Of a DNA stretch of 41,822 nt, positions 7,640-11,756 are shown in pieces. The stretch's first letter is position 1, and every line of letters begins with the position of its first letter. Origin of the DNA: a virus; IMG/VR virus record IMGVR_UViG_3300028920_000016, positions 1 to 41,822 of that record. One strand, 5' to 3'. Below the pieces are notes generated by a model. That model saw only the letters and a program-made list of their open reading frames with translations. It was not told where the DNA came from and searched no databases. A program made the position numbers and the translations under genes.

Positions 7640-8938
7640 ATGTTTTCCGCAATCACCCGCTTTTTTTCGTCATTCAGCAAAAAAGAGATCAGCCATTCCT
7701 GGCCCGCGTTCCAGAATTTCTTAACCGGCAACGACGGGCAAGAGGCGACATGGTCATACCAAGACCGCGTGGCGAAGGGCTACATGGGGACGGACATTGT
7801 ATTCTCGGCAGTCGATATCGTGGCGAGCGCGTTCGCTTCCGTGAAGCTGTGCGCTGCGACGGTCGATAGCCAGGGGGAAGTGACGAAGCTCGGCAGGGAC
7901 CACCAGTTGAACCGGCTCCTGGCCAAGCCAAATATGTTTCAGAATCAGTCAGAGTGGCTGTATGCTGTGGCGGCATTTCGCATGCTTGGCGGGACCGGAT
8001 ATACACTCATGGACACAGGCGACCCCGCAGACTTTACAAAGCCGGTCCACCTCTGGCCCTTGGCTCCACCAGCGACTCAATTGGTGTGTGAGCAGAACGT
8101 GATGTACTGGCAGTTCCATCCGCAGGAGAGCGGTTGTATGAAGTGGGCGTTTAGGCGTTTGCCGATCGACATCGACGGCACATCGAATATTGTCGATTGG
8201 AAAGCGTTCGACCCCACATCTATCACGAAAGGGATGAGCCCACTCAAACCGGCGGACCTCGCGTCAGATATCTACCGATACGGCAATATCTGGAACCGGA
8301 CATACTTCAAGCACGGCTCCCGCCCAAGCCAAGGATTGGTGTCAGACACGAAGGACGCGAACGGCAACCCCGTATTTATGGATGAGGATCAACGCGACCT
8401 TCTCAAAAAGGAGCTGAACGAGGTATATTCAGGGCTCGCAAGCGGCAACGGCAAGCCGATCCTCCTGGAGCATATTCAACCAGTAGAGCTGAGCGCCAAC
8501 CCGAAGGACGCGGACTTTATCGAGAGCCACAAGCAGGTGGCGGCAGATGTCGCGCGCACGGCTGGCGTTCCCCCGGTTCTATTGAATCAGGGCGAGGGAA
8601 CAACATACGAGAACATGGCTCAGGCCAAGCTGAGCATGTGGGACGATACCATTATCCCGCTGGTAAATAGCCACGCTGAGGAGTTGACAGAAGACCTCGC
8701 CAGCCGGTGGGGCGACAACTTTGTGATCGTACCCGACTTCAGCGATGTATCAGCTTTAGAGCCGCGGCGGGAAACAGCCTGGAAACGAGCTGAAGAGTCA
8801 TCATTCCTGACGGTCAACGAAAAGCGCGAGCTGGTCGGTATGGATGCTATTCCCGGCGGTGACATCGTCCTGGTCGACAGCAGCAAGCTTCCGGTTGAGG
8901 TTGTCAGCACCCTCGGCATAAACGGCGTCGATGAATGA
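7640..8938 (+). CDS. Portal protein, HK97 type
   Basis: 432 residues with phage portal signatures: HQLNRLLAKPN, YTLMDTGD, DIYRYGNIWNRTYFKHGSRPSQGL, and a C-terminal PPVLLNQGEGTTYENMAQAK followed by RELVGMDAIPGGDIV. It forms the dodecameric vertex ring for DNA entry and exit. Ends in an ATGA overlap with the head morphogenesis gene, so the two are coupled. Confidence 0.92.
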   Translation: MFSAITRFFSSFSKKEISHSWPAFQNFLTGNDGQEATWSYQDRVAKGYMGTDIVFSAVDIVASAFASVKLCAATVDSQGEVTKLGRDHQLNRLLAKPNMFQNQSEWLYAVAAFRMLGGTGYTLMDTGDPADFTKPVHLWPLAPPATQLVCEQNVMYWQFHPQESGCMKWAFRRLPIDIDGTSNIVDWKAFDPTSITKGMSPLKPADLASDIYRYGNIWNRTYFKHGSRPSQGLVSDTKDANGNPVFMDEDQRDLLKKELNEVYSGLASGNGKPILLEHIQPVELSANPKDADFIESHKQVAADVARTAGVPPVLLNQGEGTTYENMAQAKLSMWDDTIIPLVNSHAEELTEDLASRWGDNFVIVPDFSDVSALEPRRETAWKRAEESSFLTVNEKRELVGMDAIPGGDIVLVDSSKLPVEVVSTLGINGVDE

Positions 8939-10692
8939 ACTGGTACAAGCAATCCGAAGACACGATACTGAGAGCAGCGATCGCGCGTCAAGAACTACTG
9001 ATGGCAGCGCTGGACATCCCGTTCGAGCGGACGGTTCAGCGCAAGCTCGCCAAATACGTCGACCGCGCAGCATCCGCCGCCGGAGATGACACGCAGTTCA
9101 GCCTCAACATGGCCTTGGAAGGAATCGACCAGGATTTACTGGCGTCATACACGGCGCAATACCGCCGAACTGGCGGCGAATTCTCGCGGGCATTCTTCGC
9201 CAGCATCCAGAAATCCCTTGCCCAGGCGGAGACCAAAGACGAGACGGACATATTCAAGACGTTGCTGGATGCGTGGATAGAGGAGAACGCCGCCGCTAGG
9301 GTGCAACTGGTGACCGAGACAACTCGAGCGCTGATCCAGGGCGCCATCGCCGAGGCCGTCAACGAATCACTTGGCCCACACGGCATGCAGCAGCTGATCC
9401 GCGAACGTGCTGGGGGAGTCATCAACGCCCAACGCGCCAAGGTCATCGCCAGGACCGAGACTCATACGGCCGCGCAATTCGCGAACTCCGCCGCCGCCGA
9501 AGCGTCCGGGGTAGAACTTCGGAAGATCTGGGTTAGTACTACCGACGAGCGGACGCGCGAAACACATCGGAAGGCTGAGAGGGATTCACGCGCCACGATC
9601 ATCAGGCTGGGTGAGAAGTTCAGCGTGGGCGGTCATCCGGCAATGTACCCAGGCGACCCAGCTCTGCCAGCAGCCGAGTCTGTCAATTGTTTCCACCCTG
9701 ATACCGAAGTCCGGGGATTTGTCACAGCGGCGTCAAAAGCCGTCTACTCTGGGGACATGGTCACCATTGAGACTCTTGGCACGCGAAAGCTGTCCGTCAC
9801 CCCTAATCACCCCATAATGACCCCTGGCGGATTCAAGGCGGCTGGTGACATTGCAAAAGGCGACAACCTTTTCGCAGACCGCGGCGCACAGGAACCGTCC
9901 GTGCTGGCAATGGACAAAAATCGTATGCCAGCCAATATCAGAGAGGTATTTGGTGCGCTTGGTGATTTGCTGCCGACGTACTCCAGAAATGCTACTGCTG
10001 TGGATTTCTACGGCGACGCTGAAGGCATTCAAAGCAATATCGATATTGTAGCGGTAGATGGCTTTTTGAAGCGTTGCGTCCAGACCCATGGCGACAGAGG
10101 CCTCAAAGAATTCTCGCTCGTACAAGCCGACGTAGTCCTGCGAGATTTCATGTGCTTTAGCCTTTCGGATTTGTTCTTCATCGGAAACGACCCTACCCTT
10201 GGCAGCGGCATTAGCTGCGGCAACTTGCTTGCGAACGGCATCCGTTCCTTGAGCTTTGATGCCCTTCCACTTCTGGCGTTCCGCATCGGATTGATCTCGC
10301 CGGTGCACTCCGTGCTTATGGAGAATTCTCGCTATCACACCGCGGTCACAACAGAAGCGCTTGGCGACCTGATGTTCCGAAATGCCAGACAAATAAAGAG
10401 CGATGACATCTGCAGGCTGGATGTCGACTCGCGCCATAGTGCGCATAGTGATTCCGGCAGCCATCAGCCGTCTGCGCATAGTGGCATAGGTCAGGCCAAA
10501 AACGTCTCCCACTTCGCGCGCGGACATTCCGGAATAGTAGAGATTGATAGCGTGGTTAATGTTGAAAGGTTTCACTACGATGGTCCTGTGCTAGATGTGG
10601 AAACTTACTCTGGTTATACTCTAGCGCAGGGTCTCATCGTTTCAAACTGTAGATGTGGGCTGGTACACAGACCGCTGATTTTGGAAGAGTAA
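8935..10692 (+). CDS. SPP1 gp7-like (MuF) head morphogenesis protein carrying an intein
   Basis: 585 residues as translated. Extein 1-251 is the head protein: helical N-terminus, then RTETHTAAQFANSAAAEASG, TTDERTRETHRKAE and ESVN; the C-terminal extein is CRCGLVHRPLILEE. Joining the two gives the family motif ending in NCRC, at which the intein is inserted. Residues 252-571 are the intein. After splicing the head protein is 265 residues, normal for the family. It follows the portal by ATGA overlap and would act inside the procapsid. Confidence 0.88.
   Translation: MNWYKQSEDTILRAAIARQELLMAALDIPFERTVQRKLAKYVDRAASAAGDDTQFSLNMALEGIDQDLLASYTAQYRRTGGEFSRAFFASIQKSLAQAETKDETDIFKTLLDAWIEENAAARVQLVTETTRALIQGAIAEAVNESLGPHGMQQLIRERAGGVINAQRAKVIARTETHTAAQFANSAAAEASGVELRKIWVSTTDERTRETHRKAERDSRATIIRLGEKFSVGGHPAMYPGDPALPAAESVNCFHPDTEVRGFVTAASKAVYSGDMVTIETLGTRKLSVTPNHPIMTPGGFKAAGDIAKGDNLFADRGAQEPSVLAMDKNRMPANIREVFGALGDLLPTYSRNATAVDFYGDAEGIQSNIDIVAVDGFLKRCVQTHGDRGLKEFSLVQADVVLRDFMCFSLSDLFFIGNDPTLGSGISCGNLLANGIRSLSFDALPLLAFRIGLISPVHSVLMENSRYHTAVTTEALGDLMFRNARQIKSDDICRLDVDSRHSAHSDSGSHQPSAHSGIGQAKNVSHFARGHSGIVEIDSVVNVERFHYDGPVLDVETYSGYTLAQGLIVSNCRCGLVHRPLILEE
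9688..10647 (+). mobile_element. Intein, 320 aa, in the gp7-like head protein
   Basis: The first residue is Cys252 (CFHPDTEV, block A). Block B is SVTPNHPIMTPGGF with His292; block F is VLDVETYSGYTLAQGL; block G is LIVSN followed by the +1 Cys of the C-extein. The penultimate residue is Ser and not the usual His, a known but slower variant. The middle contains TAVDFYGDAEGIQSNIDIV and EALGDLMFRNARQI, which I recognise from inteins at this site. It has no LAGLIDADG endonuclease in the sense frame; instead the opposite strand encodes one (9733-10575). Confidence 0.88.
9733..10575 (-). CDS. Vsr-like (EDxHD) homing endonuclease encoded antisense inside the intein
   Basis: 280 codons, read in codon-for-codon register opposite the intein. 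Two N-terminal HTH segments (MSAREVGDVFGLTYATMRRRLMAAG and ISEHQVAKRFCCDRGVIARILHKHG, split here only for reference at residues 17-41 and 65-89) precede a Vsr/EDxHD-like core: NIDIAL (177-182), VAVEI (E190), TKYLSDIGW (208-216), then GHYGVIRGDGQ. These are features of phage homing nucleases of the I-Bth0305I type. The GTG start has an AGGA eight bases upstream. The usual WH...GRH segment after VAVEI is replaced by SSSISGVRR, so catalysis may be lost or altered. Confidence 0.7.
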   Translation of the reverse strand: MKPFNINHAINLYYSGMSAREVGDVFGLTYATMRRRLMAAGITMRTMARVDIQPADVIALYLSGISEHQVAKRFCCDRGVIARILHKHGVHRRDQSDAERQKWKGIKAQGTDAVRKQVAAANAAAKGRVVSDEEQIRKAKAHEISQDYVGLYEREFFEASVAMGLDATLQKAIYRYNIDIALNAFSVAVEIHSSSISGVRRQQITKRTKYLSDIGWHTIFVHCQHGRFLCAAVCEKVVAFCNVTSRLESARGHYGVIRGDGQLSRAKSLNGDHVPRVDGF

Positions 10693-10705: not shown

Positions 10706-11152
10706 CTATGGTAAATCCGATTTTTTTATGCGGCATTGCATCCAATAAATTGCACTCTCCGGACCTGCTGGCGCAGTCACGAAAGAAAATGTACTATTTG
10801 GGCTTCTGTATACCAGTACGAGTTTCGCTGGGTACCAATCTTCGTTCCAAACGTCACTGACCTCACACGGCACACGTCCGCCCTTAAGCATCGCGTCGGT
10901 GATCTTATCGCCTTCGATGTACTCGGGCTCCTCGGCTATTTCTGGCTGCGGTTTGAGCTGGTAACAGTACGGGTTATCGCCACCCGGCCCAACGTACCAC
11001 TCGCACCACGTCGCGCCCATGCATCGGCTACACTCCCAGCGGTACTCGGGCCCTTCGATGACGCGCTCCAATGCCTCAATCTTAGCGCTCAGCTTGGCAA
11101 TCACGCCCTCGTGTACTTGTCGGACTTTTTGCAGGTGCTTTAGTTCATCCAT
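10706..11152 (-). CDS. Hypothetical protein with coiled coil and Cys cluster, 148 aa
   Basis: ATG 11152 on the minus strand follows AAGGGAG at good spacing; the frame is open further 5' but runs into the tRNA-like gene. Residues 1-33 are a heptad-like helix (LQKVRQVHEGVIAKLSAKIEALERV). ECSRCMGATWC gives CxxC plus a third Cys, possibly zinc-binding. The C-terminal half (DAMLKGGRVPCEVSDVWNEDWYPAKLVLVY) looks like a small beta-barrel. It is the last gene of the minus-strand tRNA-like island. Function unknown. Confidence 0.6.
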   Translation of the reverse strand: MDELKHLQKVRQVHEGVIAKLSAKIEALERVIEGPEYRWECSRCMGATWCEWYVGPGGDNPYCYQLKPQPEIAEEPEYIEGDKITDAMLKGGRVPCEVSDVWNEDWYPAKLVLVYRSPNSTFSFVTAPAGPESAIYWMQCRIKKSDLP

Positions 11153-11179
11153 TGCGTTCTCCCTTGGTTTGGGTACTGA

Positions 11180-11256
11180 TCCTCGCTGCGGGAGTCGAAC
11201 CCGCAAGCCTTCTCGGGCGGCTCGTTTCCGAGCTGCGTTCCCACGCTATAGCGAGG
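11180..11256 (-). ncRNA. tRNA-like cloverleaf without anticodon loop
   Basis: Read on the minus strand, a 7-bp acceptor stem (CCTCGCT / AGCGAGG) and a perfect T arm (GCGGG-TTCGACT-CCCGC) are present. The middle does not form normal D and anticodon arms: it folds as GCGT-GGGA-ACGC and GCTCG-GAAA-CGAGC, both capped by GNRA tetraloops, plus a weak GCC/GGC hairpin. No U33 plus anticodon can be placed. CCA is not encoded (TCA follows). It could be a degenerate tRNA or a tRNA mimic that keeps the acceptor/T domain. Confidence 0.6.
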
Positions 11257-11447: not shown

Positions 11448-11568
11448 TGGTACGAGAGGCAGGATTCGAACCTGCATGCCGGTAGTCTTGGGGATTCGAA
11501 CCCCGCGTCATTAATCCGGTCTTGCCGCGCCAGGGCATGTCAGCGTCTACCAATTCCGCCACTCTCGC
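11448..11568 (-). tRNA. tRNA-Leu-like gene, 121 nt, anticodon region replaced by a large insert
   Basis: The 5' half (GCGAGAG TG GCGGAATTGGTAGACGC) is a textbook phage tRNA-Leu acceptor strand and D arm. The 3' end has a perfect T arm (GCAGG-TTCGAAT-CCTGC), the matching CTCTCGT acceptor strand (first pair G-U), discriminator A and an encoded CCA. Between them are 67 bases where about 34 are expected. CATGCC pairs with GGCATG to close this region, and inside lies a second T-arm-like hairpin (GGGG-TTCGAAT-CCCC). I cannot place a credible anticodon. It may be an interrupted tRNA, a recombinant of two tRNAs, or a non-decoding RNA. Confidence 0.6.
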
Positions 11569-11634: not shown

Positions 11635-11756
11635 TGGTCGGGGCGGTGGGATTCAAACCCACGACATACCTATCTGAGGGAACGTCCATTATTGCTTTTG
11701 CTAGGACTTTGCGCGCATCTCAGCATCGGATGCTCTAATCGCTGAGCTACGCCCCG
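11635..11756 (-). tRNA. tRNA-like gene with encoded CCA, enlarged and unassignable anticodon region
   Basis: On the minus strand: acceptor CGGGGCG / CGCCCCG, TA, a normal D arm (GCTC-8-GAGC), T arm GTGGG-TTTGAAT-CCCAC, discriminator A and an encoded CCA. The stretch between D and T arms is 69 bases against about 22 in a normal tRNA. It can form CTGAG/CTCAG and, inside it, GTCC/GGAC around an A-rich loop. No 5-bp stem with a 7-base loop and U33 fits. First gene after the promoter at 11795-11767. Confidence 0.6.

Follow-up and report, generated by a model that had tools for sequence, protein, structure and literature searches.

A probable homing intein of tailed phages with its endonuclease gene encoded antisense to the splicing domain in complementary codons

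The window analyzed here, a viral stretch of 41,822 nucleotides (IMG/VR record IMGVR_UViG_3300028920_000016), very probably carries a homing intein of tailed phages whose putative endonuclease is encoded by a self-contained gene on the opposite strand, in codons complementary to those of the intein. The sense strand would make a MuF head protein and an intein of HINT type that includes a passive linker, and splicing of the precursor would allow MuF function to survive. With its own promoter driving transcription, the antisense gene would yield a product that, in co-infected cells, cuts MuF alleles lacking the intein at its insertion site (typically N/C-R-C). Intein and nuclease gene would then be copied together when the break is repaired from the genome that carries them. 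The relevant features of the window are as follows.

8935-10692, plus strand: MuF-like head morphogenesis gene, a 585 aa precursor interrupted in frame by the intein (Phage_Mu_F, E=5e-9)
9688-10647, plus strand: intein, 320 residues, with Cys1, block B TPNHP, block F GPVLDVE, and LIVSN followed by Cys+1
9736-10575, minus strand: putative antisense gene, 280 aa, HTH-HTH-linker-EDxHD/Vsr-like nuclease, GTG start at 10573-10575, stop codon at 9733-9735
9778-9873, unstranded: first double-coded stretch, pairing intein residues 31-62 (around block B) with the antisense C-terminal tail
9838-10128, minus strand: predicted EDxHD/Vsr-like nuclease domain, residues about 150-246 (profile, Foldseek, conserved columns)
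9922-10062, unstranded: second double-coded stretch (intein residues 79-125); DFYGD faces the nuclease core motifs VAVEI and YNIDI
10063-10491, unstranded: antisense-coding only, intein residues 126-268, predicted passive open linker in sense
10291-10416, minus strand: second HTH unit, residues about 54-95 (HTH_23, E=1.7e-5)
10441-10563, minus strand: first HTH unit, residues about 5-45 (Sigma70_r4_2 match and model helices)
10564-10647, plus strand: C-terminal splicing blocks F-G, with a sense-type codon-position pattern and candidate antisense expression signals on the complement
10584-10587, minus strand: candidate Shine-Dalgarno AGGA, 8 nt upstream of the GTG at 10575
10618-10645, minus strand: predicted sigma70-like promoter (TTGAAA, 16 nt, TAGAGT), also seen in a plain scan

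Besides Phage_Mu_F, the head-protein families phrog_15127 and phrog_2468 match the host gene. At the extein junction, SVN / CRCGLVHRPLILEE, it is interrupted by an insert that carries CFHPDTEV, TPNHPI and LIVSN/C in that order. HINT splicing blocks A, B, F and G are present, together with Cys1, the terminal Asn and a Cys/Ser/Thr+1 residue; the insert is a HINT-type intein whose motifs predict splicing. On the sense ORF, the Pfam model Intein_splicing matches at E=4e-4, below the Pfam cut-off, and Pfam finds no endonuclease domain in the sense polypeptide. AlphaFold models the sense intein confidently at residues 1-125 and 270-320, and pLDDT is <50 between them. The initial annotation had described a complete intein with an uninterrupted middle, and both the motifs and the open 585-aa sense ORF agree with that description.

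The antisense frame of the window spans 280 codons without an internal stop, and its codons are exactly complementary to those of the sense frame. Coordinates and motif pairs confirm the codon-aligned register that had been claimed: antisense VAVEI sits opposite sense DFYGD (10003-10017), and NIDI is identical on both strands because it lies on the palindrome aatatcgatatt (10036-10047). An open complementary frame alone is weak evidence because such frames are common in GC-rich genes; in Pseudomonas extein DNA, the complementary-register open frame is much longer than that of the window. Four observations place the antisense frame beyond chance, namely its homologues, the absence of sense stops, a flipped codon-position pattern and a free-standing homologue.

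A tblastn search with the antisense protein returned ~100 phage records at E<=1e-5, and among the matches listed, nearly all full-length ones fall on MuF or other head genes. The best match, in Pseudomonas phages, has an E-value of 3e-29, and the sense intein reaches 1e-17 in these phages. Viral and genome contigs were scanned with antisense alignments only, and annotated phages found in the same way were included. Single-protein scans of viral contigs (P0001 or P0002) gave no matches, and scanning worked with sub-alignments, the full alignment of 18 sequences being too diverged for use as a query.

At 154 of the 157 loci examined, the complementary frame in sense stays open over the whole match, so that host gene and intein form one continuous sense ORF. 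Nearly all of these open frames have intein motifs, and the remaining frames are stop-rich. The exceptions are Acinetobacter phage P1068, where the gene is free-standing, and two loci (L107 and L122) with stops in both frames. In 95 clusters, 0 sense stops were seen vs 476 expected from extein codon usage, in a set selected for openness, although sense stops had removed just 3 of the 157 loci. The N-exteins (n=70) belong mostly to Phage_Mu_F (52), with VG15 (5), Phage_min_cap2 (2) and dCMP deaminase (1) also represented. The arrangement of a putative nuclease gene antisense within an intein is general, extending to well over a hundred phage sequences, and a suspicion of the initial annotation is borne out in this respect. 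Homologues of the antisense protein are many and frequent antisense stops were not seen, two points that the same annotation had singled out for checking.

The element is present in Klebsiella and Helicobacter phages, and its cellular hosts include Pseudomonadota, Actinomycetota, Chloroflexota, Bacillota, Peregrinibacteria and Ignavibacteria. In the cellular-genome survey it is rare (1 of 369 genomes of the class surveyed). The antisense protein family has been missed by annotation because it lies inside head genes; in Salmonella phage sam, only a fragment of the antisense protein is annotated. At five loci (L038, L100, L155, L161 and L162), the antisense frame has a stop and the sense intein frame is open, a pattern that decay of the nuclease after fixation would produce. 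Four others (L071, L072, L088 and L108) have the same type of element with a KAELPGNLI-like start, the expected first-position Cys being absent, and are possibly of another splicing class.

Expression signals for the antisense gene, a point that the initial annotation had missed, appear to be embedded in the splicing motifs. The consensus upstream of the antisense ATG is about TGGAGGTNRTARACATG. This ATG pairs with CAT, which encodes the His of block F GHVYxLQ, and the Shine-Dalgarno GAGG pairs with the block F Leu codon and its neighbour. Where the block F His is present, its codon is CAT or CAC (antisense ATG or GTG) in 98 of 98 cases. CAT is used in 56 of 68, vs 27.8 expected from codon usage, and the Leu codon is CTC, which provides the Shine-Dalgarno, in 73 of 93 (18.9 expected). 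For the promoter, the best sigma70-like score over blocks F-G was compared with a null in which the sense protein was kept and synonymous codons were drawn. The mean score is 9.3 vs 5.5 in the null (p=2e-14), 78 of 81 loci score above the null mean, and the region also exceeds other segments of the same strand. This significance comes from the comparative test only, a plain promoter scan giving none for the region as a whole. The reading that a candidate promoter, Shine-Dalgarno and start codon are written backwards through the splicing motifs, beyond what codon usage would predict, is supported.

An extension of this reading is offered tentatively, as possible but somewhat doubtful: the nuclease gene may be a complete convergent transcription unit, silenced in established infections by late head-gene transcription and expressed early from incoming genomes. 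Its supported part is the embedding of the signals, and the off switch is speculation. If true, the element would contain its own off switch, which would at the same time dictate the codons used in the splicing motifs. A minus-strand ORF of about 148 aa with no Pfam match lies at 10709-11155 of the window, near minus-strand tRNAs. Because this ORF and these tRNAs are directly upstream, read-through could also express the antisense gene.

In the window itself, the promoter scores 9.8, whereas synonymous recodings score 3.4 +- 1.9. AGG (10585-10587) stands where the ATG usually lies, opposite the His of GHVY; the strong Shine-Dalgarno is gone, and the GTG start lies four codons downstream of the lost ATG. 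Dependence on this GTG in place of the usual ATG may make expression of the window's nuclease weak. Such losses, along with the few relatives that have antisense stops and intact sense frames, are what would be seen if the system were real and the nuclease gene of the window were in early decay within a homing cycle. Against early decay, all 280 codons are open, E153, D179, E190 and R207 are present, the promoter score is above all 60 recodings, and relatives of the window type (L002, L038, L054 and L068) have an ATG 3-4 codons downstream. Early decay, which is compatible with the homing-intein explanation, is rather unlikely but carries appreciable weight.

Pfam matches across the antisense proteins include HTH_7 in 11 of 18 and the MTES_1575 nuclease in 10 of 18, with DUF559 and Vsr in some. 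A profile search of the PDB identified 3r3p, the catalytic domain of I-Bth0305I, at E=1e-6 and 3hrl at 5e-6, and plain phmmer of the antisense protein against the PDB returned only noise. Structure predictions used IMG/VR and genome loci; AlphaFold modelled the antisense protein with a mean pLDDT of 93.2. Foldseek paired this model with I-Bth0305I (prob 1.00), Vsr (0.98) and 3hrl (0.97), the whole-chain E-values being weak (0.02 and above) because the domain arrangement differs. In 63 sequences, no variation occurs at Y176, N177, D179 or E190 and almost none at E153 or R207, and the antisense protein of the window retains each of them. The protein is made up of two HTH units and an EDxHD/Vsr-type nuclease domain with predicted cleavage activity, and the HTH matches in Pfam, the I-Bth0305I profile match and Foldseek uphold the same composition proposed earlier from the translation. 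The EDxHD/Vsr label denotes homology of the nuclease domain, the last two letters of the signature (His/Asp) being unplaced on residues. PHROGs and NCBIfam gave partial matches only to the antisense protein. The HTH pair (residues 8-96) resembles NF040595, the model of Cbp1, a CRISPR repeat-binding protein, at E=1e-10, a match far under the model's cut-off score. This Cbp1 likeness of the N-terminal ~90 residues perhaps arises because extended targets favour tandem HTHs.

The distribution of the element points to mobility. Phages Jersey and fEg-Eco06 carry it at different MuF sites, each being empty at the site of the other. In some pairs of loci, the nuclease and the intein N-block are ~65% identical and the exteins merely 25-33%. 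A dCMP deaminase hosts the same element, with the intein inside the PCxxC zinc motif. The element appears to move horizontally beyond host phylogeny, into precise sites for which relatives have intein-less alleles. In Virus Rctr197k (L013:616-1968), the protein with a dCMP deaminase extein (PF00383) is called "putative head morphogenesis protein" in GenBank, a name that seems to derive from intein similarity. Acinetobacter phages P1068 and BUCT629 have a free-standing homologue of 297 residues, which matches the antisense frames of Vibrio (9e-34) and Haemophilus (1e-27) phages. The Acinetobacter gene adjoins and converges on an intein-less MuF head gene, and its complement has stops.

Since the HTH units resemble those of regulators and recombinases, and some of the matches to the nuclease domain come from generic DUF559/MTES_1575 or anti-phage families, the antisense protein could instead be a regulator or an anti-phage nuclease sheltering in the intein. 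This is improbable given the match of the nuclease domain to the catalytic domain of a homing endonuclease, the precise insertion sites, the reciprocal empty alleles and the co-movement with the intein.

Coding polarity was assessed by counting differences at sense codon positions 1/2/3 in 14 pairs of related loci. The counts are 576/448/1355 in N-exteins, 41/19/111 in blocks A-B, 649/207/352 in the intein middle, 33/14/78 in blocks F-G and 157/102/376 in C-exteins. The fastest-changing position of the middle is the first (649 vs 352 at the third, p=4e-21, against 576 vs 1355 in N-exteins), which is the third, or wobble, base of the antisense codon. In the part matching residues 126-268, dN/dS is 0.26 for antisense and 1.01 for sense; that of the exteins is 0.21. 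Polarity flips inside one ORF: the exteins and splicing blocks are sense-coding, and the middle is antisense-coding. Because of this flip and the dN/dS values, the intein middle is best understood as a gene on the other strand, with the sense frame merely kept open.

By intein residue, constraint is on the sense strand only at 1-30, on both strands at 31-62, on antisense at 126-268 and on sense at 293-320, and both codon ends are slowed at 79-125. Sense conservation was compared with a null in which the antisense protein was kept and synonymous codons were drawn; these null models ignore phylogeny and inflate z-scores, and effect sizes weigh more. At residues 31-62, where both codon ends are again slowed, sense conservation is 2.57 vs 0.70 in this antisense-only null. 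At residues 79-125 it is 1.30 vs 0.57, with DF[YH]GD among the strongest positions and a confident sense model. About 80 codons (residues 31-62 and 79-125) are under constraint from both strands. Double coding of the entire stretch, with another functional sense domain in the intein middle, would draw on this, but residues 126-268 are sense-neutral, have near-null conservation and have a sense pLDDT below 50, which makes full double coding very improbable. Those residues are predicted to form a passive disordered linker in sense. Of the ~840 bp that the initial annotation held to be coding on both strands, the claim stands for residues 31-62 and 79-125 and fails for residues 126-268. The alternative that conserved intein codons merely cast a long untranslated antisense frame in complementary register, to which the codon alignment and the GC-rich exteins with long antisense open frames of no known function would lend themselves, is rejected on the polarity flip and the free-standing homologue, with the dN/dS contrast and the confident fold of the middle in antisense only leaving it a negligible probability.

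Conventional homing inteins combine a HINT domain with an in-frame LAGLIDADG or HNH endonuclease, PI-SceI being an example. The probable homing intein described here resembles them in its HINT blocks, its insertion at conserved motifs of the host protein, its associated endonuclease and its presumed homing. In contrast, its endonuclease would be the product of a separate opposite-strand gene over the splicing domain, outside the intein polypeptide. The fractured genes that Dassa et al. reportedly described in 2009 (cited in PMC10448857) are said to be split inteins with a Vsr-like endonuclease gene between the host-gene halves. They would thus share the nuclease superfamily and its association with phage-type inteins, whereas here the host gene remains in one piece and overlaps the endonuclease coding sequence. 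I-Bth0305I is an EDxHD endonuclease of a group I intron (PMC3943268). Its nuclease domain is homologous to that of the antisense protein by profile and fold, and is likewise joined to DNA-binding HTH units; here, however, a protein intein houses the gene, in antisense orientation, and the HTH units are N-terminal. Nuclear group I introns can carry His-Cys box endonuclease genes on their complementary strand, as in the Porphyra P1 extension (PMC2585584). In both arrangements a self-splicing element has an endonuclease gene on its other strand, but the nuclease families differ. Because the splicing element of a group I intron is RNA, the overlapping strand need not encode protein.

No earlier description of an endonuclease gene antisense to an intein was found in the literature searched, whose coverage was partial, and a prior report is possible. 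The arrangement would represent a third mode of cohabitation between endonuclease and intein, besides the fused and free-standing ones. To our knowledge, few antisense overlapping protein genes have good support, and such cases are disputed. The strength of the present case lies in deep alignments, a free-standing relative, a polarity switch within one ORF, two complementary AlphaFold predictions, embedded expression signals and built-in controls. Common phages such as Jersey offer a tractable system for studying the joint evolution of two proteins encoded by complementary codons, as well as the handling of opposed transcription.

Elsewhere in the window, Rfam tRNA models match 11451-11568 (-) and 11638-11756 (-), which are 118-119 nt long with ~45 extra nt in the anticodon-arm region. 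ARAGORN reported only a tRNA-Arg, at 11180-11256 (-).
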